A DNA stretch of 64,000 bases, from assembly GCA_903813345.2 (NCBI GenBank), contig CAIIXF020000007.1:6451730-6515729 (forward strand), read 5' to 3'. Source of the DNA: Owenia fusiformis (taxonomy: Eukaryota > Annelida > Polychaeta > Sabellida > Oweniidae). Positions 1,726 to 49,525 of this stretch are shown one piece after another (position 1 is the first letter of the stretch; every line of letters starts with the position of its first letter). Position numbers and translations under genes: made by a program. Under the pieces are notes generated by a model. The model was not told the DNA's origin, did no database searches, and worked only from the letters and a program-made list of their open reading frames with translations.

Positions 1726-1780
1726 TTTGCGTCAGTGTAACAATGTATCATATCCTTCCTTAGTGACTTAGAGTACTAAC

Positions 1781-4700
1781 CTGCATGTGAGATAAGTCTT
1801 GCTCCAACAAGTTCACCAACAAGAACTGTAAGATTGGGAGCTATAGCCAACATACGATTCTTGAGATAATCATACAATTGGCCCCTGTATTCAGAGATCT
1901 CCAGAATCTGAAATGTAACACAATTAGTTTGATCATATCACTCTTATTTCAGTCAATAGTTGTTTATCATTTACGATAAAAAGAACACTGAGCAATGGCA
2001 AGTAAGACAATTAGGATATAACTAGATGTACATACAATCTATGTCAACCTAAAACATTCAAATTGACCATTGTAAACGACCGTATAACATTTATGAGTGA
2101 AGCAATATACAAAACATTAACATGACAAAATGTAGCAACCTTGTTCCAGATACAGACGTTCAATAATATGCTACAGACATTGAAACTAATTGAAATTAAA
2201 ATGGGTTTATGTTCATTGAAATTAAAATGGGTTTATGTACCTGATCACAGAGATATAGGACATTGGTCATATCCTCCTCTGATACCTCAGTTCCCATGGA
2301 GATCTCTGCTGCTTCCTTTACCTCAGCCTCAACCTCCTCTGGTAGGATGCTAGAGAAGTCAGTGGTAGCACAGTTGACCTTGTCACCTACATTACCAAAG
2401 CAACACAATGAGCTACCATGGGAACAATAATTTTACCTTTTGTTTTCATTCGCTTTAAGCTTTGTTATTAGAAATCCTAATGAACCCCTCACATTAGCTT
2501 GGATTACCCACCAACTATTACATAACATCTTACTAATATCAAATGTGACTTTTTGTAGCATTCAGATTAACAATAAAACATAGTACCTAAAGTGAATGGT
2601 GGTCAATTGAACACTAAAAGGTTCTGAACAAGAAATATGTGTTTGAAAATGTGTAGTACATTGTTGTTCCAGCAATGTGTACCACCTATGGAACAAAACT
2701 TACCCATTAATTTAAGGCATTTTGCATAGGCTGTATTGTCTGTAATAATTTTGCCTAATTCAGGGAAATGCCACCCGTACCATTCTCTACATCTCATGAC
2801 ATAGTTGTTCAGTTCTTTGTCTAAGTCATCAAGCAAAGCTAAAATTAAAGGGAGGCGATCAATATTTTTTTCATCAACAATTTTTTTAATGAATTTATAC
2901 GAGATATTGGATCATTCATGATGGGTTCAAAATACCTAAAATCATTGAAGAACAAATCTGAGTAACTTATGGGATTCTGAATTCTTTCAACCCTTATTTT
3001 CCAATTTCTTAACTGGGTGCAACAAAGTGAAGTAGAATGTATTCAGTTGCTTCAATCAGAAGGTCATGATCCATAAACATGTGTAACAGTATCAAAATTC
3101 TACTTACAGATAGCTTGTACAATCATTGTATCGACTTTCTCCGGACTGAACTTCAGCTTGTAGCGGGACAAACTAAAACACAATATTCCATAATTTATAT
3201 CATTTACACTAAATCCTGGGTACACAGAGAAACAAAGAAAAAAGTTTAAAGATCAACAGCATACTAATGTTAACCAGCTATTGCCATTATAACATATTCC
3301 TTGCAGTGCTCTCCTGGAATTTTTTGTCTGGAGGATTTTGTTTATGTCTTTTGTGCAACGTTTTAGTATTTTGTAATTTTTTGGAACATTTTATGATTTT
3401 ATAATTTTTTGTGCAACATTTTGTTTGATATCTTATAAAAAATGGAATTAGACATGATGGAGAGACGAAATGGCGGACACGGCAGTTTTAAAACTGAAAA
3501 TATAATCAATTCTTTTATGCGAACCATGGGTCTGATTTTTACCAGGTATGCCAATTTGACTAGATCACGAGTATATCTTTACATGTGTCAAAATCGGTGG
3601 CGCTTAACGGCTATCTACGAAAATCATGTCAGTAAGATCTTAGACTTAGCATGTGCTTAGGATGAATGTTGATCTAGTCAAATCGAATACTTTCACAGTG
3701 TTCTCCCTAATTTTTCAAAAGTGAGTGGTGAAAAAGTTTGAATAAAAATTGATGGGTGGTGGCAAAATTATTAGGGTGGTGATAAGTTTACAAAAACGTG
3801 CTTAAAAAAAATCAGCGCCGCTTCGCGGCGTTACTTAATTACAATCATTTGCATCAATAGCCAATTGTTATAAATATGCTAAACATTTGTTTTGGTGTTA
3901 TGTAGACTAATTACATAACATCAAAACAAATGAAATTTAGCACTGTATAATCATCTACTTTAATGACAATCACAATAGGCCATGTTGCAATATAAATGCT
4001 CAGAGGTTTGTTTTAATTCAATGTTCAATTTAATATTTATTTCCATAATATAATATAAAGTTCAATATACAAAATAATTTTCAGTATGTGGCCACATATT
4101 TCTTCAAATTATTGAGTCCGAAATTCCCGGGAAAATGTGCACACATGTTCATTTTTGTTCAGTGTACTCTTCAAAATCGGAGGCTGTGAGTCCTGACCTA
4201 GAAAAAACATGTTTCATTTCTGTGCAAATCAAACTGTTTTTTATCAAAATAGAAGGTAAATTGAAGATTCTTTAGTGCAAGAAAGGTAAGTACAGACATT
4301 TCTTTATCTACATAGAGCACTTTGTATCGTTTTCAAGCAAAACGGGCTGAGATTTTGATGTGATTAAAATTTTTTTCAATTTCTATTTTCACTTTGGGAA
4401 ATTTTCCTGTCAAAGTCTAATGCGTGGCGCAGTTAATAAATGTGTGGCGCGCAATAAATCAGCGTGGGGCAGCCACAATGTGTGTGGCGCGAGCGCCACG
4501 CATTTTCCAGTCAGGGAGAACTTAGCTTTCATGAAAAATAAATCAATAAAGTACAAAATACAGAAGATAATCTCTCAAAATCAAACAGCTGCAGCAGTGT
4601 GGCCTAATTGTGATGTCACTACATGATAGAATCCATTCAGTGATCGCAAATCATCAATGACTCAGATGCGAGTAAGAAGTTCCCAGTTTCACTACCAGGT

Positions 4701-7700
4701 GGCTCGTTCGGCTCAGATAGCATGGCGGGTATAGTACATGGTTCCTTTTAACTTAATATTCATCTGTTTTAGTGGTTCAATTTTCATATCAGCTTTATTT
4801 AATGACGTAAATCAAGAACTTATCTTCTCGCATGTAGTCTATTACATAGAGGAGCATTTTGTCTATAAAATACATGGAGGTGCTGCGTCTCGATGATTTC
4901 AATGTGGGGAGGGCACTGCCTTGGTTATTCATGGATGGCTATTTGTATTCCAGCTACTACATGTGCAGTATAACTTTATATAGCATCGGGTGTCTCATGC
5001 AGGGTTCGTACACCTTTTTCAAAATGAATTTCCCTGACATTTCCCTGACATTTCCAGGCAAAAAAGGAAATTTCCAGATCTAGTTTTCCTTGCACGGCCT
5101 CTAAAAAGTCTCTAACTGTTATGCGGAAAACATGATACAAATATATGTCATATTCCGCAACGAATATGGCATATTCACTTGCGGTATATGCCAGATTCAC
5201 CTGCGGAATATGGCATACACACTAACCAGTGAGAACGCGATACGGAAACACGCAATTGTCAATTACATCGATTCAATGAATGTCTATAAATTATTCTTAT
5301 GATAACTGAATCAACATCTTAGTGCACTGAATATATCAGCTTATACAATTGAATAACATACACCAGTATGGTACCTGTATTGTCTGATGTTTTTTGTGTA
5401 TGTGTTACACGCAAAAACACACTTCAAGGGAAACATTATGACGCATAAATAAACGAGCCTACGTTCGTAAAGCTTATGAGTGACTTTTATAACCAAATCA
5501 ACAGTTAACAAAAGCCAGATAAAAACTTTAAAAAATCACGAGTATTTATATATTGTTATATTGGCAATCATGATTTACACATTTCTGATACTTTTATCAC
5601 GAGGGGATTTTATTGTTTATTTGATGTTTACTTTTTGTTTCACTTTTGCTAAAATAATGTCAACTTAAGTTTTATAATTAGAGATGTACTCATTAACTCA
5701 GCAATTAGATTTAGGTCATTAAAATATTCTCAGACTTCTTCCTAAATATCTGTTGAAATTCAAGTGGTCATTTGTATTGTTGTATGTTTTATGTAACCAG
5801 AAATATGAATTTATTGTCACATGGTGTCTGGGAAACCAGCTGATTTATGTATTGTTGGGCAGTTTTCGGCCTAACCTTCAAAATTATAACATGGAAAATA
5901 AAGACCTCTCACCAAATTCTAAATTAAGAGCTAGTAACTAATTAACAAGAGAAAACAATGAATAAAAAAATATATACACAGAAATTATATAAAAACACCC
6001 CGTCATACTTTCAGGAGTATCATTCAGCAATTACACGTAATAAACGTACTTAATCAATCCAGGATTCATTCATATTAGTGCTCGAAGCGCTAACTATGTT
6101 GGTAGTCTAGCGTAGTTTTACATTTAGAATCGATTCTTTTGACCAATCAAATCGAGGCTTTCTGTATTGCGTTTTCATCTGCGGTATATGGCATATTCCA
6201 CAGTTGAGTATGCCATATTCCGCAGGAGAGTATGACATATTCCGCAGTGAGTATGTGGTATTCACTGAAATCAATGTATCGCATATTCACTGCGAAATAT
6301 GCCGTACTCACCTGCGGAATATGCCATATACCGCAGGTGAGTATGGCATATTCACCAGTATCACAAATACCGCACAACCATGAATATATGCCATATTCCG
6401 CGTAACACTAACAACTGTATTATTTAAAAGACAAGACTTATTATGAAACATTTTGGGTTTGTCCTTTAGTACCATTTCTCATGACTTAACTTTACTTCTA
6501 CAGGCCGTCTTATTCACCAATTTATTCCTGATACATTATATTCTCAATTTTAAATATTTACATTGCATAAGGCCAAAGGCAACATACATGTACAGAGGCA
6601 TCCAACAAGTGTCAAGGGGGTGCATCTTTTGGAGTTTGCATCACTGCGAGCGAAGGAAAACCAAAAGGGGGGGGGTTTGGGGGTTCAACCCCGGAAATTT
6701 TTCAAAATTGACAATTGTATATGGTGCATTCTAAGCATTTCAAACTATAATTTGTTAATGTTTTGTAATGAATCCAAATAAAAACTGAAACTTCAAAATG
6801 TTGATCTAAAGAAAAATAGCAACTCCCTTGAGGGGCAATTCCCAACTAATGAAACATTTTATCGAATACTATCATTGTGAACATTATATGAAAAATGGCA
6901 AGTGGCTTCTTGGGCAGAGGCTCTATATACAGTAACAAAAGCATTGGTATATAAAATTTTAACAAAATCTGTCAACTGATATTTGAGTTATCATGTGCAC
7001 CCTGATAGATAAATAGACTGAATACGACCGGACTGTTGAACAGACAGCTCCTTGATATAAATACAATTTTAAACTGTTAAGAGTTCCCGGATTTGTTTTT
7101 GTTTTTCACCTCCCGCCCTCCTCAGATTAACCCCTCAACAAACCATGAAACATATACCAGCAATTACATTTGAATGGCCTAAGACTAACTTACTACATGG
7201 GAAGCATAATTATATTGAACCATCTATTCTATACATATTCTTTACTCGGTTTCAGTATGATGTTCACACTGTTCTTACAAATAGACAAAACCAGATTCAA
7301 AGTCATTCAATCAACCCTAATGAAAAGATTTACAATTAGTGGAAACAACTTAACATTTGATTTTGGATTTCATTGATATCCTGTCATAGCCCTAAAATGT
7401 ATTTTGCTGGAACATTATTTTTTCAACAATCATACAAAATTCCCTGACATTTCCCTGACACATCTACTGTTTCAAAATTCCCTGACATTTTTGGCCCTTT
7501 TTGACCCAATTTTAAAATTCCCTGACATTTCCAGCACCTGGAAAAATAAATCAATTTCCCTGACATTTCCAGGTATGTACGAACCCTGTCATGGCCCTAT
7601 TAAGAGAAAAGCCTCAGGCTTCTGTTTTTACAAAGTTGCCTGATGTTTGCTGGATTTTTTCATTTAAAATTATAATTTCCAATGATTCTGCCTTTCAGAA

Positions 7701-10700
7701 ATTCTATTGAATCCCCTAACCCCTGCTACATGTCTAGCTACATACCTATGGGCAAGACCAAGGGCCATGGCTGCCATTTCTTTTTGCGGAAGACCAGTAA
7801 TTAAACTGTCCATCTGGGAGCGAATACCTCTGATCAATTCATTGATAGCAGAGTTAGCAACGCAGGGAATGGACAACTTGTCCTGGAATTCAAAATATAA
7901 TAACATGTAAAATACATTAGATCATGGTTTGAAACTCACAGCTGCCCGACTGCCAATTGGGCATTTCATAGAATGCATGCCAATATGATGTGACAATCAT
8001 ATGTTCAACCTTAGTCGTGAACCTTGTACTTGATTTTGTTGAAGGGGGGGGGGGGGTAACTGAGGATTTTTTTGTAAAAAATGTAGATTTAAGTGAAATA
8101 TAAGTGGACAGCATGCAAATCATCATTTTTTGTTTTATTACAGGAGATGGTTGTCAGTAAAACTGTAAAAAACTTTTTTTTCCACATCTGTCAACATTCC
8201 TTAAGCCCCTCATTGTCCGCCTTATTCTGTCTTCACATATGTCAGGTGTATCAACAGGTATTAATCATCGAGGCTTTCTTCACCCAAGTATATTTATGCA
8301 AAGTCATCTCATCAAAAATGGAGAAATTACAGCGTTTTATGAGAATTAAAAGAATTATGAATCTGGACGGTGTATGTTTTATCTTCGAAACTTGGATTAA
8401 AAAGTCAGAGAGACTACAAAAATTCCCAGAAAACTAACCTTAATACTATTTCCTAGTTTAGCATCAGCAACTGCCAATTGTTCATGTAGGTCTTCTGAAT
8501 ATAATTTCTTCAAGACCTTTTTCAGAGTCTTGCTCATTTTCCCCTCCACTGCTGCACATGTTGCTACAAGATAAATATTTTAATGAAGTAAATCATGAGA
8601 TATGAGTCTCCACTGTTTGGGGAATCACATAATCAACAGGTAAGATTTTGATCAAAATTAATCATGATAAAACTTTATATCTTACAAATTGAATGACTAA
8701 GCTCTAATGTAGAGTTTATAACAATTTTTCACTATTGGTACTTCACATCATCTCATACATATCTGTGTTTGAAATGGCACAGCTATAGCCTTTATTTAAC
8801 TAAGGTTTTCGTTAATGCAGTACACCAGAGTGTGTACATTTTTGGATTTCATTCAACTTTAATTTTAATTAAGCGAAGCCCCTCATTGTCCGCCTTATTC
8901 TGTCCTCACATATGTCAGGTGTATCAACAGGTATTAATCATCAGGACTTCCTTTTTATACAACAAAATTATCAGAAAACACCTCTCTGAACTTGTTCAGG
9001 TAGTTTTCACCAGTGTGATATAAAAGGAGACACTAACTCAAGAGGAAAAAAAAGTATTGTCGATATTCAAGGAGTATATTCTGTCACGATGATGTAGTCA
9101 GAACCTAGAAAACCGATGAATGTTTTAGGAGATTTTATAGTCGTAGGACAGTAGACTTACCAGCTAAGGCTTCTGTTGTGTCTTTGAATTTCTTGAATTC
9201 TTTCAGCTTAACTCTGAAACACAAATGGCATTCATTTATAAACAGTTTTCAAGGGAATTGAAAGTGAAGATTAAATTATTATGCAACGTTTAAAATAAAG
9301 GAACAAATACATGAAAGGAGAATTACATTATAATCCCAACTGCTTTGAATCAAATTGACGTTCTAAGTTCTTTAAAATCATTTTTGAAATTACAATACAT
9401 TATTACAATAAATTAGATAACAATGGTACTTACACTTTGCTAGCAGACTCTGCTGTTTGGAAGTCTTTGAAGAGGTCATCAGTTGATTTAAGTTTCTTTT
9501 CATCCAGTAACTACAACATATTAATAAAAAAAAAATATTAATCATTACTCAAGTTACAAGAGGTGTCTTACTATGAGCTAGTCTTGATAACCGACATCAA
9601 ATGGCCCTTGGAAGAATAACTTAAACAATTTAAGATAAACTGAACCCAGGAACAGCAAAATAAAGACTACATGTATTTATTTGATTTATGTAAAATAGCT
9701 GACGAGAAGATAAAGGACCCACGGTCCTGTGCTTACACAGTGTTTTATGCAGCCAATGATGATTGACTTTATACATGAGAAAGTTCCCTGAAAATGACGA
9801 AGTCCTACTTTTTGTCAAATTTTATAGATTAAACACCAAAAACTGTAATTTCATGAGCTTTGAAATCTTCAGGGAACATAAGTTGCATATGCAGCAACTA
9901 CTACAAATTATTTGACAGTTCTACTTCAACAAATTGTCTAGTATTAACAGAAAATTTGACGTCAAAATCAGCAATTTCTCGGACACAAGGCGAACTTGGG
10001 AAATGGCTATGTATTTATTTGATTTATGATAGGTCAAATAGGCATTATGGATATGCATAAAATGAATGTGGATAGGACTCAATCCGAATAGCAGTTTTAA
10101 TTTGTGCGGCCATATGTTGACGGATGGACCAACAGACGACGGATGCCTGGTCGATCCCATAGGCTCACTGTGTGAGCCAATAATCTAAAAGTGTAGCAAA
10201 TACATTTTCAGAGGTCAGAAAAAGCTATTTCATCATGTTTATGGTCATTCTGACCATGCCCATTGTGATCCTGGTCATGTACATGATATGTGGAACTAGT
10301 AAAACTGACTGAAGGTCAAAATAAAACTCTGTTATCTAAGTGCTGAGCTTAATAAATAAGTGTTATTTTTTCAAAATAAATAGCGGTCCTTCCAAAAATG
10401 TATTTGCCAAAATACACCTTAGACTCAACCAGAGTTATGTTGTCAAAAGCAGATGACTTTATAAACATGGTCATTTCCTCTGACGTCATTGCATAGTTAA
10501 TGAGCACACACAGTTCCTGTTCCTTCCAGCTCGCTAATTAGTTGAGAAAAGGTCAGTGCAGATTACCTATATTTCAAAAGCTGCCTAACTAGAACAGCGA
10601 CTGAAACTGAAATCAGCTGCTTACTTTATATTTGATATATCTCCAAATGTTCCCCACATCTCCATTCTGCATTTACGAAAGTGTGTTAGTTATCAGCTGC

Positions 10701-13436
10701 TTCTGTGTCAATCAGGAATTTTTCTTGTGAGAATTCAAAATGGCCATTTCGAGAGAAATTTACAAAGAGTATCGTTCAAATCTTTGTAGATTTCCAAATG
10801 AATTTAAAAACTGCTAAATTTCTGGCACGGAAAACACTGGGAATTTCAAATGTCCATCAAAACCGCCATTTTGATTTCTCGCTAGAGTCTGTTTCATTGC
10901 GTCAGTAGAATGGCAAAAATAAGAAATTGGGAGACCATTGTGCAATAATATATGGAAAAGTATATTCATAATATACATGAATGAAAGTATATTTCCGATT
11001 TTTTAGTTTTTTGTGCAATAAGCCTGTGTCGTCTTGTAATTTGAAGAATTTCAGCCATGTTAATCTTATTGAAAATAACATGGCAGAGAAGCATCCAAAT
11101 ATAAGAGGCCACACACTTTATAAGCCAAACTAGAAGCAATCCAAGATATACAAATGTCATTCATGTACAATAGGAATATATTTTTCCATATATTATTGCA
11201 AAATGATATTTTGATTTCCTATTTTTTAGCTTTAACTGACGCAATTAAACAGTGAAATGGACTCTAGAATCTGAACACAAATTCTCGGTAGAAGTTCATA
11301 TGGTGAAAATAGCGAAATAATGAAATGTTACAGTGTGTCTACTTAGCAGTTTGTTCTATGTCATCCATCCTACTAGGTTACATTGTGGAACGCAGCCAAA
11401 CACGACACTGAAGGCAACAACATGTCGATGTTGATAAGCAGAATTTTTGGAAATTTAGATCGTCCATTTTGCAAGTTCACGTGACTCACACGTGACACGT
11501 GTCTGATCACGTGACTAGTTACTGTACTGATCATGTGACTTAATGACGTGTCATCCAACCATGTCTTCAAGGAAAACAGAAGTAAATATTTTGGAAAATG
11601 TTTTCCGAGCATTTGCTACTGATTATAGAAGGCCCAATTACGCAACGAACGAAACTGCTAAATTGTATTTCGTGCCTAACAGGCCCAGTACGCAATGAAA
11701 GAAACTGCTAAAAATTGTATTTTTAGTCTGCTTATTGATCTATTGATTCATAAAGACCTGAAATGATGCATTCAAATAAGACCGCCTCCTAAATGAAAAC
11801 ACTACACATAAAGTGGTGAAAAACAACGAACTAAAGTTGAAAGATCGCAACGTTCACTACTTTGTTCAATTCCGGAAGTCTCCAAGGGGCTGCAGAAGAA
11901 GAAATGGGAAATTTTTACAATTTAGATTTTATAACCTCAGAATACTGCCTTCATTGTCGTGTTTGGCTGAGTTCAACAATGTAACCTTGCAGGATAGATG
12001 ACATAGAACAAACTGCTAAGTAGACACACGGTAACATTTCATTATTTCGTTATTTTCACCATGTGAACTTCTACCGAGAATTTCTGTTCAGATTCTACAG
12101 TGCTGATATATAATAATTAAGGGTGCGTTTTCAAACTAAACAGAGTGCTCCTATCAAAATGAATTTGCCTACATACCCCTGAGACTCTTATCTGATAGAT
12201 AGAATGCACAAATAAAACAAAAGTTTTGCTATTATAGGTAAAAAGTTCTCTTGAAATTTCGAAGTGATTTTACCTGTTAATTTTGTCCATGTCACGCCAT
12301 TTTTGCGGAAGTTACACTGAAACGCAAACTCCATGAAACGAAACGAAATCACTAGAAAAAAAACATGGCACACATTGTGCGCATGTGCAGCAAAGTTTAG
12401 ACCAATCAGATTATTTGATTATTTTGCGCATATGAATTAGTTGCTTCTGAGCACTTACAAGCTTACCACAATAAACAAACCTGGCAGAGACTACCCTTAG
12501 CCCACTTCATTTTGGCGAAATTTCAGCTCAAACTCGTGACAAATGCATTATGCATACGCTGGTGTGAAGCCTTGGAGACACTCATTTTGGTAAATATGAT
12601 TTATGGGGTATACTTTTCTGCAGTTTGTGTGAGTTTGGGACATTAAATGTTAAAATTCAAGAAAATATGCCAATTAAACGACTTATCAATTAATATATAC
12701 CAGCACTGTACAGTTGGGGACATAAATAAATGACAGGTGGATTTGCTGAAGTGAGGATTTCCCATGTTAAAAATAAGAGAATTTACAAGAGGCCATACAT
12801 CAGTGGATGAGATTATACAAAATATAAATATACAAATTTTAAGGGATATATATCTAGACAATATTGGAAATTATGGGCTTTCAGACCACCATAATTAGGA
12901 AATGGTGATCGAAAATCGACCTGTCATTTATTTTTGTCCCCAACTGTAAGAGAGTTTTGACTCGGGAATAAAGGCAAGTACTGACCAACCCAAAAGCAGC
13001 TGATTACTTACAGACTTTCGCCAGTTTCAGTTCTGTATGAAAAGATCTCTTAATTCTCAGGCAACTCGAATCGACTTTTTTATTCATGTTCCCATGGTTG
13101 AAATGGATTGTAGGCCAAGTGCAGAAAATAATCAGCTTTGAAATATAGAATATGGAAGGTTCAATTAGACTACTGCTCTTCAAGACCAGGACAAGGAACG
13201 AGATGGTCTTGGAAAAAGATAAATGATGTATTACAGATCTTCCAGGTTTTCAAAAAAAAAAAGATCAAAAACCAGATATACACGTGTTCTTATTTCCAGC
13301 TGTCCAGGGCTTTCTGCGAAGAGAACAAATGATAAATTGGTTAACGATGTGTGCCCTACATTATCCCCCACAAATATAAAATATATATTACCTTAAATAC
13401 TGCATATCCAGCCGGTGTTTCAAATAAAACCAACAT
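1781..13436 (-). CDS. NOP58: NOP58, box C/D snoRNP core protein, partial (residues 1-303)
   Basis: NOP58 works in the nucleolus with NOP56, fibrillarin and the 15.5K protein to assemble box C/D snoRNPs for rRNA 2'-O-methylation. Nine coding exons can be read, all with AG/GT borders and continuous phase: 13392-13436, 9434-9510, 9161-9213, 8439-8563, 7746-7882, 3108-3172, 2704-2838, 2241-2386, 1781-1907 (910 nt). The start [15 protein letters not shown] matches the family N-terminus. [13 protein letters not shown] (residues 184-196) marks the NOSIC region, [20 protein letters not shown] lies in exon 8, and [14 protein letters not shown] (291-304) opens the Nop domain. The last donor (1779-1780) is in phase 1; nothing in 1-1780 continues the protein, so roughly 225 C-terminal residues should lie left of the window. 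NOP56 is less likely because exon by exon the sequence follows NOP58. Identity is near certain; borders were read by eye. Confidence 0.96.
2190..2240. repeat. 26-bp tandem duplication next to the exon 8 donor
   Basis: ATTGAAATTAAAATGGGTTT occurs twice in a row, 26 bp apart, directly beside the 5' splice site of NOP58 exon 8 (2239-2240). The used donor reads GTACAT; the duplicate reads GAACAT and lacks GT. It is a local slippage duplication and its effect on splicing is unknown. Confidence 0.7.
3700..4521. mobile_element. Putative TIR element with GTTCTCCC ends
   Basis: The segment starts GTTCTCCCTAATTTTTC and ends in TGACTGGAAAA/GTTCTCCC read in reverse, giving short terminal inverted repeats. 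It contains GCGCCGCTTCGCGGCG (3813-3828) and several GTGGCGCG words near the right end. No clear target duplication was found. It lies in NOP58 intron 5 and has no coding content. Confidence 0.4.
5000..7588. mobile_element. DNA transposon with CAGGGTTCGTAC ends, hAT-like, non-autonomous
   Basis: Left end CAGGGTTCGTACACC and right end GGTATGTACGAACCCTG are inverted copies, and both sides carry several TTTCCCTGACATTTCC subrepeats. The 5-bp target duplication TCATG is present at 4995-4999 and 7589-7593. CAGGG termini with 5-bp duplications fit hAT5-type elements (inference). The body was opened by a second element (5117-6407), so the original element was about 1.3 kb. No transposase frame is seen. 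It lies in NOP58 intron 5. Confidence 0.75.
5117..6407. mobile_element. TGTTAYGCGG-ended transposon, copy 1 (1,291 bp), nested
   Basis: The ends TGTTATGCGG and CCGCGTAACA are inverted, flanked by the exact 5-bp duplication CTAAC (5112-5116 and 6408-6412). Both ends are built from many short words of the type TGCGGTATATGGCATATTC in either orientation, making long imperfect inverted arms. A second copy with its own duplication is at 48895-49525. No protein is encoded. It sits inside the CAGGG element, so it inserted later. Confidence 0.85.
7883..8438. other. NOP58 intron 4 remainder
   Basis: Apart from the snoRNA candidate, this intron holds a run of 13 G (8045-8057) and nothing else I can support. 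An exact ATGATGA on the minus strand near 8130 has no D box downstream. Confidence 0.6.
8203..8276 (-). ncRNA. Candidate box C/D snoRNA, copy 1, in NOP58 intron 4
   Basis: On the NOP58 sense strand this 74-nt segment starts and ends with a short stem (AAGCC 8276-8272 with GGCUU 8207-8203). Next to it lies a C-box-like UCGAUGA (8271-8265). A canonical D' CUGA (8245-8242) follows after 19 nt, a C'-like GUGAAGA (8236-8230) five nt later, and a D-like AUGA (8213-8210) 16 nt after that. These spacings are those of box C/D guide RNAs. About 62 of 68 core bases match a second copy in the neighbouring intron. NOP58 genes host snoRNAs in vertebrates. Weak points: the C box has one mismatch, the D box is AUGA rather than CUGA, and I could not recognise an rRNA target for either guide region. 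Confidence 0.55.
8876..8949 (-). ncRNA. Candidate box C/D snoRNA, copy 2, in NOP58 intron 3
   Basis: This paralogue of the intron 4 element is the better copy: it has a full UGAUGA C-box core (8943-8938). The terminal stem AAGUCC (8949-8944) pairs with GGGCUU (8881-8876); one C-G pair of copy 1 is a U-G pair here, so pairing is kept. D' CUGA is followed by C'-like GUGAGGA, and AUGA (8886-8883) is the D-like box. The D' guide UUAAUACCUGUUGAUACAC and the D guide CAGAAUAAGGCGGACA are identical in the two copies, while the flanking intron sequence is unrelated. That argues for selection on the element or for a recent small duplication. Confidence 0.6.
9511..10860. other. NOP58 intron 1, first part
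   Basis: No coding exon is visible. At 10110-10190 there is a dispersed-repeat end (GACGGATGG... followed by GGCTCACTGTGTGAGCCAAT, a small palindrome), like the segments near 15060 and 62540. Confidence 0.5.
10868..12105. repeat. Two adjacent foldback (inverted-repeat) elements in NOP58 intron 1
   Basis: The first pair of arms is about 10868-10990 and 11152-11275 (shared words CCATATATTATTGCA and CTGACGCAAT). The second pair is about 11266-11412 and 11935-12100 (GTTTGTTCTATGTCATC; AGCCAAACACGAC). The first foldback abuts the second. Between the second arms lies a CACGTGAC-rich stretch (11475-11525). No frame encodes a recognisable protein. Confidence 0.75.
12711..12946. mobile_element. Tc1/mariner-type MITE, CAGTTGGGGACA ends
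   Basis: The 236-bp element has inverted ends CAGTTGGGGACATAAATAAA / TTTATTTTTGTCCCCAACTG, each flanked by TA (12709-12710, 12947-12948). The TA duplication and the CAGTTG start fit Tc1/mariner. It is non-coding and lies in NOP58 intron 1, about 0.45 kb from exon 1. Confidence 0.8.
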
Positions 13437-14961: not shown

Positions 14962-16547
14962 ATTCTAGAGTCAAGAGCTCACAGTCAGCACCGTCTAATA
15001 TCTAATATAATAGAATATAATAGTCTAATAACTGAATAATGAAGATTGATACAATGTAACGCTCACTGTGGGTGAGCTCTTGTTCTAGACCTGTGATACT
15101 GATTTATCGAAGACCTGGCATTGTTTGAAGCACAGATGCTCCCTGGGTAATAAGAGTACAAGGCCTGTATTTTTGCTGTATTTTTCATTAGAACTCAGTT
15201 TTAAAGGCCTTTGTTAAAAGGGAAAGCTTATTATCAAAGTTAGATCTTACTTTCTCCAGTGTGCTCATATGAGAAAATTCAGTTCATGAGCAAGAAAACC
15301 TGCTCTTAGTTTTCTTCAGCCATTGTATTGTCTCATAGTGAACAGTTTTCCATACACTACAGTCTGATTTAAGATAGCATGTGCAACTTTACTTCAATGA
15401 CATCTAACAAATGAGGTTGACGTGACATTCAAGCATTACTGTAAACTTTTGACTGTGACTTTGAAAACAATTTAGATTAAATAGAGAATTACATATAAAG
15501 CACGTCGAATATATAAGATTTGACAACCCAATGGTAAAGGGTTATATCGTACATTATAGTGTGCCCTGAGCCACACATTATTGTACTGTACATATTTTGA
15601 CAGATAAGTTTTACATAAACCTATAATCTTAGAAGATATTTTGCTAAAAAATTGTTTTGGCATAATATGATGAGTAAATGTTACAGATGTAATACTATTT
15701 ACTAGATGGACTATTAAAAATAATATTTACTGGATTATTTGTTTATATTTGATATAACAAAATTCCTTTCAGGTTATTGCAAAGTATTCCTTGAATTTGC
15801 GGCTTAATTTGCTCTTAAAATTAAAGACAAATGGAACCGGGATTGACTCTGAAAATTCTTTTAAATGTAATAAAATAAGATTCCAAACTTCTTAAAAATC
15901 ATGACATTTTCTAGATTTACTGTACAGCAGTTTTACTTTGCTCTGATGAAAAAGCAGCTGGTATAAGCAGCATTCTCTAAATTGAAAACATATCCTCCTT
16001 TCTTGAGTCATCTTTGTTAACAGTGTTTGTTGTATGTTGTAGATTGACTGTTATTTAACTCTTTTTCAGTTTTCAATTGGAGAAGAGTATCAAAAGAATG
16101 ACAGAAATATCACATGTTTAACACTAACAGTACAGGCACATTTGATGCAAAACATTTTCTGGATAAACTAAACAGAGGTTACAAATTAGACACACTGACA
16201 TTCTGTTGCATTATCCTGATCTATTATAAATAAACAGTCATCACTCTAATTGATGTTAATTGTATCAGGTATATGTCAGCTATCTTGGATTTAATGGCCT
16301 CATAAAGGAAATATTAAACTCATTGATCAACTCTCTAAATCTTGTTTATATTACACAAACATTCAAATACAGCCTGAAAGAATAACTAAATCGGGAAGTG
16401 AATATTTGAACAAGGAAGTTCCAACAATTAATATTTTTAAGAATACAGGTGCTATACTTCACCATGATGCTCTTAAGCAAGGAGTGATTAAACGTCGCTC
16501 ATTGAAGTGTATGTACACAGTTATATTAAAGGATATTCTATATTACG
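14962..16547. other. Spacer upstream of the SOCS start codon
   Basis: About 1.6 kb with no coding evidence. It should hold the SOCS promoter and 5'UTR, but no TATA box or CpG-rich patch stands out. A short repeat end (GCTCACTGTGGGTGAGCTC, 15061-15079) is present. An in-frame TAA at 16527-16529 closes the frame above the SOCS ATG. Confidence 0.5.
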
Positions 16548-19500
16548 ATGTTTAAAAAAGTAAAGGCATTCAAAATCAAAGGCAACAGTAGTGCTGCTGA
16601 CATTGGTGATGACACAGTTGGAGGTGTCTTTCTTAAAACCTACCAACCTATAGACATAAATAACATTGGTAGCGCTGGTAGCAGTACGACTTCTGATAGC
16701 GACACACAGGAGCAGCCTGAGGAAAAACCAAGGAAGAACTCAAAAGGCTCTTCCATATTTAATACATTGAAAAAACTAGGACGGAAAAAGAAGCATAAAG
16801 ATATTCCATTTGAGGATGCATCTAACGCTAAAAACAAAAAGGAGATTGAAAATAATAACGCAAAATTGAAAGAGCAAAGCTCAGTTTTAAAGGAGGCACT
16901 AGATAAAGAAACTAAAACTTCAAATGAAAATATTAATAACAAAGATAAAGTAAATGGCGTTGAGCAGATCACTTCAGATAAAGATAGGCCCACAGATAAT
17001 GTAAATATTGAAAATGCCAAGGTCAATAATAAGGAAAATGACAACAAAGGTGAAGTGGTTCTAACAGACAATGGAGATGATCAAAGTAAACACGCTTTGA
17101 CTGTTAATACAGATCAGAAAAGTGAAATTATAATTGATGATGATGACGACCCTGATTATGCTACAGTTGGGAGTCCAAATGGAGGTGGATTGACATTTAA
17201 GCCTCATTTGCCAAAATCGCAGGAGTCCACATCAAAATCTACCAACTCTGGATACGCTTCAGTAGGTGCTCCAAGTGCAAATATAGATGTAGGCAATAAT
17301 GTTTTTGAAGATGATGAAGATGACACTTACGCCACTGTTGGTAGTCCAACAATGGCTAATGTTATACAGAAACAACAGATAGTACCTGAAAGTCCAGATG
17401 ATCCTGACTATGATTCCATCAGGAAGTCTTACATGATTGAGGCTACCCAACCTCTTAGTGCTATTAACAAATCAAATGATGATGATTCAGTAACTGAGAA
17501 CGCCAGATATCTGGCCCAAGGTGCTAGGCCAAAGGTGTTTCCAACTGGCCAAAATGACAATTTCAAAAATCCAGATGTTGAAGTTATCAACACTAATAAA
17601 CCACAAGATGAGATTAACAGAAACGAGGATATTAAAGATACTCCTGCAACGAAAGAAAACCTAGATGATATGTACATTACGAAAGAGCAAGTGAAAGAAA
17701 TGAAACAAAAAAATCAACAAAATAAAAAAGACCCAAAGTTAGATATCCAATTAGACATTCCTTCTTACCAACCTGGCAAGTCTGTAGAGTATGAAATGAC
17801 AAAGACAGAGCAAGATGACAAAGAGATTCCTAAAAACGATATTCCATCTCCCGACCCGGCTGTCAAGACATCCAATCTTATGTTACGGAACATAGATGTA
17901 CCATTTGAGTTAGAAGGCATTTATGAGTCAATTAAACCAGCATTACCAAATAAAGGTTTCAAGACTGAACATAACATCAAGGTAATAACAACAAATACAA
18001 ATGATCCACCAAAACCTGATCAAATTGATGGTGCCCAACAACAATCCACTCAAGAAGTGAATATTGATTCAGAGGAAAACTCTGATCCAAAATCAGCCCA
18101 GGACAAACAACTTGAACCAACAACAGAAACAACCAGCTTGTTGTGTGTTTCTGAAGATCAGCATAAACCGCACCCAACACCACTTACAGTTGAGATTCCG
18201 AGCAATGATGAGATTGATGAGGAACCTATCCATATGTCCTTAGAGGAAGTGCGGGGTGAAAGTTTACCTGGTGCTGATACCACTGAACTCATTCATGTCA
18301 CCATTGAGGAACTTAGGTGAGTAAAGAGTAAAACGTTTAACATGTGTAGCCTAGTAATTAAAATAATTGTATATTCTCGTTATCATTTATTTCAATTCAA
18401 TATTTTGGTCTGTATTTTTAATATTGATACTTAAATTTGCTGCAAATTAGGACAATATTTTAACTATATCCAGTGATTAATGAAGTTTGACCCCCATACA
18501 TTTAGTTATTTGATTACAGGAAGAGTAAAGAGTATAAGAAACTGCAAGATAGCTTAAGGCCCAATGATGGGAGAGGTGAACCAGATGGCGTCTCCACAAC
18601 AACCAGTGTCCCTATCAATCAACGGAGATTGCCTCCTACTCCCACTGTATCTCCAAAGACATCAACTTCAGAAGGTGAGCCCCGTTGTGATCAAAAAATG
18701 GCATTGGGCTATAAATGAACTACATGTACATATTATGTAAAGTATCCTTTCTAGAATGCCCATTGCTATGTAGGTATTGTATTAATATGTACAACCTTAC
18801 ATTGTATTGTACATTTGTGAAAATACACATCAGTAATGAACAATTTCAAAACTGGAACTTCACCATCTGTCTGAAAAACATCTTGTAAATGGAAGATGAA
18901 CTTCAGCGCCAGCATGTTCAAACTAGGCGAGTAGGTGCCGTAAGAGTTCGAGACGCGTGTGTTCCTTGTGTTTATTCATTCAAGGGATGTCAGGCCTTTT
19001 ATTTACTCTTAAATGAGAACTCAGTGTCCAGTTCTAGCAACAACCTATTGATATGAGTGTAACTTTGCCATAATCTAAACTTGCCTAAATGCTCAATTAT
19101 ATGATTTAAAGGAATGAAAATAGATAGAAGGGTTGATCACAAAGTTCTCACAATATCTCTCTAAGTTGTTTGTTTTTCATTCAATGTGGCATTTTGAAAT
19201 TTCACAGCAGAATGTGTAACATACAAGGACCTATAACAATTATTTTTAGTGTAACAGAAATATTCTCTGAAAATTCCAATATATATATATATTGAAAAGT
19301 AAAATTATAGAATGATAATGAGATAAGCCCTTGGTGTTTACATAAAAAAAGTTTAACATCTAGCATCCAGATTAATATTATACAAAAATATTTGAAGTTA
19401 TGGACTCTGAACTCTGGACCTCTAACTACCTGTAATTGACAACATGTGTGAACAGGTATTAACGAGACAGGTGCCAATAATTAGAACATTTTTAATATTA

Positions 19501-45635: not shown

Positions 45636-48352
45636 ATGGGGATTTATGGTACCAGAAAATGGAGATTCCTGTTTTTAACATTTGCCCTTATCATTATGAT
45701 TTACGCCTTCGATGTACTACTAGACCTGCGTCAATTTGCACCAGTAGGAAATCACAGAAATTGGACAAAGTTTGGATATGACCGTCAGGCTTCAGTCCAC
45801 GGGCGTATGAAATGCAAACAATTTACAGCAGAACTTCCAAATATTACAAGAGAGCGTCACGCGCTGGCTCCCGATGCATTTTATAATTTAGTATTTAATA
45901 ACACTTACTTGGATGAGATCGAGTTTATTCATAAAGCGCATGGTATATGTGATCGAGAAAATGTTGGGGAATTTCTGTTTATGGTAAAACTTATAAGCGA
46001 TGCAACAGGTAAATACAGTATATTTGGTATTATTTATCGAATAGAATAGAAAAAAGTGTGTGTGTGAAAAACAAAAAATCATCGCACGTTTTTGTATTTT
46101 TGAATAGTTTTTAATAGATGGTCCTTCATTATTGATTTAGTATAATGATTAAAGACACCGGCCTTTTTAAAACACGCCTAACCATCGACAACGTACAGTG
46201 ACAAAATATACCGTCGTACACTTTAGATGTACGGTGTCACCGTATTTAACCGATTTGAAGCAAAGACGATGATGTAGGTTTGATGTAGGTTTTAGAAAAA
46301 TAATCTGAGGAATGCACTATTAAGGATTTCATGTTTGATTTTGTGTGTATTCGTTTGGGAAGACATTTAACATTCTAATAAAGTTAAAAGATTTTCGAAC
46401 AGTGCTTGCTTTTTTCGTAGTCAATCTACCCATATAATTGGTCGGTTGGAAAATGTATTTTTTTATACATTTTCTTTGATCATTTCCTCCCCTGTCGTCT
46501 AAGAGTGTCGAATATTTTTATGAGAATATGTTTCTTTTAACTACACGATTAAGGTCTGTTGAAGATTAGATAAGTATTATCGTTTTGGCTATAATTTAAA
46601 AAATCATACGTGTACGTTGTCAACTCGAATGTACGATGACAACGCACATTTCTGATTTTTTAAATCACAATAAATACTTGAATTAGTGAATCTGAAAACA
46701 TAGGATCACATCCAATGCTAAGGGCTGATCTGAAAAAGTCACTCCACCCTGGTGGGAAACGAACCCACAACCTTCCGACAGCATGTCAGGTGCTTTACCA
46801 CTTGAGCTACGGAGCCGACTGACTCTCTTACATTAACATTGCATATATGGCATCACAGCCATGACTTACATGCCCAGTCTCCTGGAGCCATTATGAAGTT
46901 TACCTGTCTTTCCAGCTTGTCAATCACACTATTCATGATGTCACATGGTCTTTCCCATGTCTCATTTCCCAAAGGAGAAATCACTAGTCAATCTGAAAGC
47001 ATAGGATCAAATCCTATGCTAAGGGCTGATGTGAAAAAGTCACTCCACCCTGGTGGGAACGAACCCACAACCTCCCGATCAAAGGAAATGTGTAAAAACA
47101 ACATTTTCCAACCGGCCAATTATATGGGTAGATTAACCACTAAAAAATCGAGCAGAATGTCTTCCCAAACGAATACTCACAAAATCAAACTTGAAATCCT
47201 TAATGTATTGTTCAGATGATTTTTAAAAACCTACATCAAATCTACACCACTGTCTTTCAAATCGATTAATGGTGACACCGTACATCTAAAGTGTACGACG
47301 GCGTGTTTTGTCACTGTACGTTGTCGATGGTTAATCGTGAAAAGAAAACCTACTAGTATTATATTAAATTATATATATTATTATATAAAAAATGCTGGTC
47401 TTCTCTCATTGTCATATGCCTGATGGGAAATTGTTTCTCTTAATTCAAAGTCACTGTTTTTGCATTGAACACTCTATCTCTTAAAATACAAGCACAATTG
47501 AGAGTTATACATGTTATACCAAGATTGTAAAGTCACAATTTTAGGTAGTCTCCCCCTTGCAAAATTCAAGGCTTCATGACGAATGGTATGCGTTTATATG
47601 TATTTTGATATATTTCAATAGAAACGGCTGCTTCGTTCCGGCATGCAATACGGAAGACATGGGGTAGTGTAAGGAAAAGGTCACGCTGGAGCATCCGTGT
47701 TGTGTTCGCAATAGGACAAACTGAAAATACGACACGCACGAATGCAATCGATAAGGAAAGTAGGAGATATGGAGATATCGTACAAGGCACATCTGCCGAT
47801 TCCTATCTGAAACTTGCAGATAAAACAATCATGTCTTTCAGATGGCAACAAGAGTATTGCTCAAATGCGATGTACGTCTTTCATGGTACACACGATATTG
47901 TTGTTAACATGGACAAACTTATTGCATGGGTTGATGACTTTTATTTACATAATACTTCTTCTGAACGGGTATATTTTGGATATCCTATGTTCAATCCAAG
48001 GATTCTACACGAGGGTATTTATAAATTGTATTCCCCTGTCCAATGGCCAGCTGGTAAATACCCTTTTTACCACCCTGGTCATGGGATAATTTACTCTATG
48101 TCATTTATACGTCAAATGAACGCTATGTTCTGCAGAACTCCCATAACCAACCCAGATGACTGCTATCTCGGAGCAATTGCGGAAGCCATGGGAGCAAAAG
48201 AATATTACTTCAGAAACTTCCATGCCGATTACAATGGAAAAATAAACAAAAATGTTGTATATTTACATTTGGGTCACACGGGTAAAATGAAGCGTAATGA
48301 AACAGAAATGTACGAATGGATGGCTGAAATATACAATGGTTTTATAAAGTGA
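45636..48352 (+). CDS. GT31 family beta-1,3-galactosyltransferase-like protein, two exons, 367 aa
   Basis: GT31 enzymes are Golgi type II membrane proteins that transfer sugars from UDP-donors in beta-1,3 linkage. Exons 45636-46008 and 47622-48352 join in phase 1. A short cytoplasmic start is followed by a membrane anchor (about residues 10-28, FLFLTFALIIMIYAF) and a stem with N-glycosylation sites. Family landmarks: FRHAIRKTWG, VVFAIGQTEN, YGDIVQGTSADSYLKLADKT, CSNAMYV, YPFYHPGHGIIYS and NPDDCYLGAIAEAMG. The usual DxD region (KTDSD or DDD in relatives) reads HGTHD (212-216), so its first aspartate is replaced by T214; the C-terminal acidic pair D303-D304 is kept. The frame is otherwise intact, so this may be an inactive or unusual member. 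Exact substrate cannot be told. Confidence 0.9.
46690..46816 (-). mobile_element. tRNA-derived SINE, copy 1
   Basis: On the minus strand a tRNA-like head starts GGCTCCGTAGCTCAAGTGG (A box) and continues to GTGGGTTCGTTTCCCAC, a perfect T-arm with B box, ending CAGGGTGGAGT. A SINE body GACTTTTTCAGATCAGCCC follows. The anticodon arm is imperfect (no U33), so it is not a functional tRNA. Confidence 0.65.
46987..47081 (-). mobile_element. tRNA-derived SINE, copy 2, 5'-truncated
   Basis: Same family and orientation as copy 1: GTGGGTTCGTTCCCACC then GACTTTTTCACATCAGCCC. The A-box half is missing. It lies about 170 bp from copy 1 inside the same TIR element. Confidence 0.6.
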
Positions 48353-48894: not shown

Positions 48895-49525
48895 TGTTAC
48901 GCGGTATATGGCATACATTCATGGTTGCGCGGTATTTGTGATACGGGTGAATATGCCATACTCACCTGCGGTATATGGCATATTCCGCAGGTGAGTATGC
49001 GATATTCCGCAGTGAATATGCGATACATCGGTTTCAGTGAATAACCGATACTCACCAGCGGAATATGTCATACTCACTTGCGGAATATGCCATATACCGC
49101 AGGTGAATATGACATATACCGCAGGTGAAAACGTGATACAGAAAGCCTTGATTTGATTGGTTGCGAGAATCGACTCTAAATGTAAAACTACGCTGGATTA
49201 CCAATATAATTAGTGCGTCGAGTACTAATATATGAATCCTGGATTGATTGAGTAAGTTAATTACGCGAGATTGGTGACTGATACTTCTGCTAAGTTAATA
49301 TATTCGATACACAGTACTGTTGATTCAGTAATCATTATAATAATTTATAACGATTTACTTGTTCGTTCAATCGATGCAATTGACAATTGCGTACTTCCGT
49401 ATCACGTTCTCATTGGTTAGTGTGTATGCCATATACCGCAGGTGAATCTGTCATACACCGCAAGTGAATATGCCATATTCGTTGCGGAATATGACATATT
49501 TTTGTATCGTGTTTACTGCGTAACA
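48895..49525. mobile_element. TGTTACGCGG-ended transposon, copy 2 (631 bp)
   Basis: Ends TGTTACGCGG and TACTGCGTAACA are flanked by the exact 5-bp duplication ATACT (48890-48894, 49526-49530). The arms carry the same CACCTGCGGTATATGGC words as copy 1 at 5117-6407, to which it is inverted and about half as long. Confidence 0.85.

Follow-up and report, generated by a model that had tools for sequence, protein, structure and literature searches.

Two near-identical box C/D-like elements in neighbouring NOP58 introns, a putative intron-encoded snoRNA pair

What are the two almost identical short segments that occupy neighbouring introns of a NOP58 gene: a pair of box C/D snoRNAs encoded within the gene of a C/D core protein, as the first-pass annotation had proposed, or a repeat of some other kind? 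The DNA analysed here is a stretch of 64 kb, referred to below as the window. On its minus strand nine tblastn matches track residues 1-303 of human NOP58 in order, from 13436 to 1779, the query being 408 residues of the human protein; for the residues of this 408-residue query beyond 303 there was no tblastn match in the 64-kb window. The joined exons match the Pfam families NOP5NT and Nop. Among the chains of PDB entry 7mq8 they match 'Nucleolar protein 58' at 5.5e-134 and 'Nucleolar protein 56' at 9.1e-54. The gene, the two introns concerned and the repeated unit are the following.

1779..13436, minus strand: NOP58 gene, exons for human residues 1-303 (tblastn, Pfam, PDB)
8564..9160, minus strand: NOP58 intron 3, GT..AG, between exons 3 and 4, host of copy 2
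7883..8438, minus strand: NOP58 intron 4, GT..AG, between exons 4 and 5, host of copy 1
8876..8953, minus strand: copy 2, box C/D-like 78-nt element in NOP58 intron 3, direct repeat
8203..8280, minus strand: copy 1, box C/D-like 78-nt element in NOP58 intron 4, direct repeat, sole strong match between the two introns

The gene and its surroundings carry other features. A repeat of about 630 bp is contiguous at 48895-49525 (inverted), while its copy in a NOP58 intron is interrupted: the parts 5117-5343 and 6012-6407 are separated by some 670 bp (5344-6011) that look like an insertion. A NOP58 intron also holds, at 5163-6381, a cluster of short palindromic units of the GCGGAATATGCCATATTC type in direct and inverted orientation, and a tandem array with offset steps of about 162 nt lies at the left window edge (55-1118), downstream of the last NOP58 exon found. 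Outside the gene, a 596-codon open frame (stop to stop) at 16530-18320 contains repeated YATVGSP-like motifs and gave no Pfam match at 0.001, and a Galactosyltransferase (PF01762) coding stretch lies at 47609-48352. No tRNA was reported in the window under bacterial settings.

The two copies are identical at 73 of 78 nt, lie in direct orientation and in the sense of the host, and are separated by 673 nt from start to start. When introns 3 and 4 were compared by blastn, using pieces a few nucleotides shorter than the full introns, the 78-nt unit was found at 6.7e-31 and the runner-up was a 15-nt match in the opposite orientation (E = 0.039). The 60-nt flanks of the copies share 28% and 25% identity (ungapped), so that near-identical segments between unrelated flanks, as initially described, are confirmed. 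In the 64-kb window no third copy was detected, the best other blastn match having E = 0.14, and a 30-nt core with up to 3 mismatches occurs at 2 places (mean 0.00 over 100 shuffles). Searches of a viral_contigs collection with the core motif (0 matches) and of a phage collection with a 151-nt query (no match) concern databases where animal DNA is not expected. It should be mentioned that the window is repeat-rich, with 62 self-matches at E up to 1e-6, and thus a repeated pair is not by itself remarkable.

Our analysis revealed in both copies, on the host sense strand, a box C/D-like layout, as listed below.

8270..8276, minus strand: copy 1 stem I 5' arm AAGCCUC, uninterrupted 7-bp pairing with 8203-8209
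8262..8268, minus strand: copy 1 C box AUGAUUA, 1 mismatch to RUGAUGA; bulge formed by G at 8269 with A and U of the box
8246..8261, minus strand: copy 1 D' guide spacer, 16 nt, between C and D' boxes, same in copy 2
8242..8245, minus strand: copy 1 D' box CUGA, exact
8230..8236, minus strand: copy 1 C' box GUGAAGA, 1 mismatch
8214..8229, minus strand: copy 1 D guide spacer, 16 nt, same in copy 2
8210..8213, minus strand: copy 1 D box AUGA, 1 mismatch; its A faces U at C-box position 6
8203..8209, minus strand: copy 1 stem I 3' arm GGGGCUU
8943..8950, minus strand: copy 2 stem I 5' arm GAAGUCCU, uninterrupted 8-bp pairing with 8875-8882
8935..8941, minus strand: copy 2 C box AUGAUUA, 1 mismatch; bulge formed by G at 8942 with A and U of the box
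8919..8934, minus strand: copy 2 D' guide spacer, 16 nt
8915..8918, minus strand: copy 2 D' box CUGA, exact
8903..8909, minus strand: copy 2 C' box GUGAGGA, 1 mismatch; top cryptic 5' splice-site match of intron 3
8887..8902, minus strand: copy 2 D guide spacer, 16 nt
8883..8886, minus strand: copy 2 D box AUGA, 1 mismatch
8875..8882, minus strand: copy 2 stem I 3' arm GGGGCUUC

The spacers measure 16/5/16 nt in both copies, the internal D' CUGA and C' GUGARGA lying 5 nt apart. With a length of about 72-78 nt and two spacers of 16 nt, the elements fall inside the ranges given for box C/D RNAs, namely 60-90 nt and 10-21 nt (PMC8162545). The opposite strand of the element has no C or D box at its ends. 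Each copy is predicted to form a kink-turn consisting of a flush stem of 7-8 bp, a G-A-U bulge, G.A, A.G and U.U pairs and then a U-A pair, which occupies the place of the consensus G-C in the C/D kink-turn. The sequence elements of the fold, i.e., stem I, a 3-nt bulge with U, tandem G.A/A.G, U.U and a Watson-Crick pair, are thus all found in both copies.

The boxes and the 19-, 5- and 16-nt spacings initially proposed can be located in both copies; the choice of the C box and, with it, the 19-nt spacing had to be revised. Under the published box-score definition (PMC10234308), AUGAUUA scores best as the C box of copy 1 and lies 3 nt downstream of the one originally chosen; in copy 2, AUGAUUA and CUGAUGA tie with one mismatch each. 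The original choice (CUGAUGA in copy 2, UCGAUGA in copy 1) was rejected, as it overlaps the stem, has two mismatches in copy 1 and leaves the D box unexplained. Moving the C box 3 nt downstream results in the same C box in both copies, a compensated D box, a flush stem and two spacers of 16 nt. With this correction, the assignment of the pair to a class, that of putative intronic box C/D elements in a snoRNP-protein gene, is supported by the sequence.

The non-consensus C and D boxes, found in both copies next to an exact D', can be set against published kink-turns. In the cryptophyte nucleomorph snoRNAs GtNM-R12 to R14, recorded at small-RNA loci, a C box AUGAUU accompanies a D box AUGA, a combination called compensatory (PMC6461891). 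As recounted there, Kuhn et al. 2002 found that single changes weaken L7 binding and that the double change restores it, and a C box GUGAAG, with A-U replacing U-U, is described as neutral for L7 binding (PMC6461891). The C' box of copy 1 has this A-U form, while that of copy 2 has G-U. A full-length guide RNA kept its activity when the U-U of terminal stem II was replaced, whereas a variant lacking C'/D' became less active; for U14 in extracts, weaker protein binding was noted (PMC6770171). A terminal AUGA D box has also been recorded in 2 of 41 Entamoeba C/D snoRNAs (PMC3542256) and in a small fraction of those of Dictyostelium (PMC8817022). However, G:C is strongly conserved at this place in human and archaeal C/D kink-turns (PMC5689011), and five human control snoRNAs had exact C and D boxes throughout; against this background the U-A form, and the AUGAUUA/AUGA combination as a whole, is unusual. 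In a partial survey of the literature, which does not thereby exclude animals, the AUGAUU/AUGA pair was met in nucleomorphs alone (PMC6461891).

Several scans bear on how often such an arrangement arises by chance. The box score was 3 in both copies, a value equalled or bettered (3 or below) by 3 of 3000 69-nt stretches drawn at random from the window. A kink-turn scan was defined by RUGAUXA and YUGA 35-75 nt apart, a Watson-Crick X-Y pair, an NRU bulge and a flush stem. With a stem of at least 6 bp it returned two places on both strands of the 64 kb, which are copies 1 and 2, and these were still the sole matches when X-Y pairing was dropped and the stem relaxed to at least 5 bp. In 200 dinucleotide shuffles, with X-Y Watson-Crick, there were 0.085 matches per window at stems of at least 6 bp and 0.035 at at least 7 bp; with D' and C' also demanded (up to 1 mismatch each), the rate was 0.005 per window at a 5-bp stem and 0/200 at at least 6 bp. 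The case is somewhat weaker than these figures suggest, since the model was fixed after the sequence and the box-score output had been seen and the two hits are homologous and not independent.

Less specific measures were less distinctive. A generic C/D scan used generic weights and a D-box threshold lowered post hoc, the initial setting having excluded AUGA. With the original C box, copy 2 was the best place of the window on both strands (28.3), a value reached by about 0.5 hits per shuffled window and exceeded by the best hit of 15 out of 40. Copy 1 scored 22.2 with the original C box, which is background (about 21 hits of at least 22 per shuffled window), so the initial version taken alone is suggestive only. 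Two readings scoring above this value, 8154-8236 (24.3) and 8242-8315 (23.4), were discarded because they rely on flanks absent from copy 2. The terminal-stem energies, -6.9 and -8.3 kcal/mol, were matched by 37% and 6% of 500 shuffles and are unremarkable, the 5% quantile of the window being -9.5 kcal/mol. Folding z-scores were -1.67 and -1.59 over 81 nt, and -0.34 and -0.38 over 73 nt. In Rfam nothing matched at the gathering score, and with E values up to 10 allowed there were just two hits, both below threshold.

Comparison of the copies adds a further line of evidence. All five differences, at unit positions 4, 8, 10, 11 and 49, are transitions. Three of them lie in the stem (C/U, U/C and C/U, each facing G) and pairing is retained in all, so that the stem variation reported earlier stands, with three changed pairs instead of one. 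A fourth affects C' at the pair with U of D' (A-U in the first copy, G-U in the second), and the fifth falls immediately beyond the 7 bp of the copy 1 stem, at the site of the eighth pair of copy 2. The C, D' and D boxes and all 32 guide nucleotides are the same in both copies, in agreement with the earlier statement that the guides are identical. Were five transitions placed at random, the 22 tolerated non-guide positions would receive all of them with a probability of 0.0012, which becomes 0.15 when guide positions are counted as tolerant.

We consider an intron-encoded box C/D snoRNA pair, orphan so far and made by cis-duplication inside NOP58, to be the best explanation of the locus, with a probability of roughly 70% judged from sequence. 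After splicing and debranching, each stem-closed element would be trimmed to an RNA of roughly 72-78 nt, to which SNU13 would bind first, with NOP58 and fibrillarin then joining at the C/D motif and NOP56 at the C'/D' motif. The host mRNA would in this way encode a protein that packages the products of its own introns. The distances from the elements to the 3' ends of their introns, 312 nt for copy 2 in intron 3 and 320 nt for copy 1 in intron 4, are compatible with intronic processing, since expressed human snoRNAs mostly lie at least 100 nt away from the branch point (PMC10234308).

Among the alternatives, an ordinary short dispersed repeat inserted twice in NOP58, with a coincidental box pattern, survives best, although we regard it as unlikely. 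It would suit the repeat-rich window, and a small MITE could likewise show short terminal inverted repeats. However, there is no further copy or clear fragment in the 64 kb, the flanks show no target-site duplication or A-tail as judged by eye, and both copies lie in the host sense in neighbouring introns. Furthermore, the combined kink-turn and D'/C' model has no other match in the window and none in the 200 shuffles, and the substitutions spare the C, D' and D boxes as well as the guides.

The guides themselves, whose complements are UGUCCGCCUUAUUCUG and GUGUAUCAACAGGUAU, were compared with human 18S, 28S (the part outside the expansion segments), 5.8S, U1, U2, U4, U5 and U6 and with protist rDNA from BQJP01000067.1, to which the human rRNAs were also aligned as a check. 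The latter contig, deposited as part of a Thermodesulfobacteriota MAG, holds eukaryotic rDNA (18S, 5.8S, 28S) that contains three group I introns, and it ends in a GGGGTTT array; it is a contaminant in that MAG. The best values in the anchored scan of this target set were 7.9 for the D' guide and 8.4 for the D guide, with null means of 9.5 and 8.65, and 93.5% and 61.5% of 200 shuffled guides do as well. The unanchored scan of the 16-nt guides gave 8.5 and 8.0 against 8.99 and 9.16, values equalled in 53 of 60 and 58 of 60 shuffles. There is thus no D+5 antisense match to rRNA or snRNA beyond shuffled guides in the human and protist set, which bears out the original failure to match either guide to an rRNA. 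As orphan members of the class lack such a match, its absence alone does not exclude membership. A 28S match of the originally defined 19-nt D' guide was set aside, as its 13 pairs include 5 G-U, start 7 nt from the box and enter the revised C box. Orthology with SNORD11 or SNORD70, the latter presumably identical with HBII-234, was also dismissed, there being no Rfam hit and no contiguous pairing at human 18S G509 or A512, which we take to correspond to G470 and A473 of the chicken.

The D guide pairs over 8 bp (1 G-U) with U5 loop I, which is not above chance, and its position 5 falls on C36, which we take to be one off the known Gm37 site. U5 loop I is retained as a weak lead for a candidate D-guide target, because for yeast U18, which has an AUGA D' box, methylation of two neighbouring nucleotides has been discussed as the outcome (PMC5389607). 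The identical 16-nt guides may act on a lineage-specific rRNA site, on an snRNA site or on no trans target.

Next in order comes cis-autoregulation, in which the C/D kink-turns would bind SNU13/NOP58 in the pre-mRNA and switch splicing, excess NOP58 lowering its own production; for example, binding may mask a cryptic donor in the C' box of copy 2. We hold this to be rather unlikely as the explanation of the pair, while it is not mutually exclusive with the snoRNA reading. Guides for which no target was found, in the gene of a C/D core protein, would agree with it, and there is a precedent in SNORD86 of NOP56, described as a cis sensor (PMC11028025; PMC8162545). In addition, by scores computed with generic weights, the strongest cryptic donor of intron 3 is the C' box of copy 2, at 77.3 vs 91.9 for the true donor. 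However, in an intron of 597 nt the chance that the top cryptic donor lands in a 78-nt element is about 13%. Furthermore, the support from cryptic donors is weak because the C' box of copy 1 (63.6) is not the best in intron 4, whose top cryptic donor (74.7, at 7939) lies outside the element. Pairing of the guides with NOP58 pre-mRNA (best 10.5 and 10.0, null means 10.1 and 9.7) was not above chance, and guides unchanged between copies suit a trans role. A narrower proposal, that the non-consensus U-A kink-turns act mainly in cis, sensing free SNU13/NOP58 and thereby setting NOP58 splicing or intron retention, appears decidedly doubtful.

The least probable of the alternatives, that the copies are decayed and unexpressed snoRNA duplicates, would account for the non-consensus C and D boxes, the targetless guides, the modest stem energy and the fact that copy 1, with the originally chosen C box, would be classed as a pseudogene by the published definition of the SnoBIRD filter (C score of at least 2 and D score of at least 1; PMC12309372), but the best C box gives a C score of 1 and places both copies outside that filter, the two box changes compensate and the five differences spare guides and the C, D' and D boxes, unlike random decay.

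If the snoRNA pair is real, it would suggest a snoRNA-hosting role of NOP58 beyond vertebrates as well, and it would provide an example of a compensated C/D box pair, a form penalised by tools in which the C and D boxes are scored one by one. By analogy, host-gene feedback like that of SNORD86 in NOP56 is possible, and the locus would offer a second test case for C/D core proteins regulating themselves through elements in their own introns. If the cis reading were true, the pair would constitute a second, independently built feedback loop of a C/D-RNP protein after SNORD86/NOP56, and the altered U-A pair would tune the affinity of the sensor.

The pair resembles several known systems. As the first-pass annotation had stated for vertebrates, NOP58 is a published snoRNA host: chicken NOP5/58 carries paralogue C/D pairs in introns 3,6 and 8,9 guiding 18S, and nearly all snoRNA paralogues of the chicken are attributed to intragenic duplication (PMC2653536). 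The elements described here resemble HBII-95/SNORD11B, HBII-234 and chicken GGgCD12 and GGgCD13 in being box C/D-type paralogue pairs in NOP58 introns, but the vertebrate RNAs guide chicken 18S G470 and A473 (PMC2653536), and the guides of the present elements pair with neither of the human positions taken as counterparts. The molluscan and bivalve snoRNA literature, superficially surveyed in excerpts, offered nothing on NOP58. With GtNM-R12 to R14 the elements share the AUGAUU(A)/AUGA pair, interpreted there as a Watson-Crick pair preserved where the end of C meets the start of D; however, the former belong to small-RNA loci of an algal nucleomorph and have potential rRNA targets (PMC6461891), while the NOP58 elements are intronic, known from sequence and targetless in our search. 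SNORD86 likewise is an orphan C/D element lying within the gene of a C/D core protein, in an intron of NOP56; it differs in that its cis-regulatory role has experimental evidence (PMC11028025; PMC8162545), whereas the NOP58 elements are two copies with a sequence-based description. Finally, in the SNORD115/SNORD116 arrays, too, successive introns hold C/D-like RNAs that have no known target, but these arrays comprise dozens of copies in the snoRNA host gene SNHG14, whereas here two copies reside in a protein gene.
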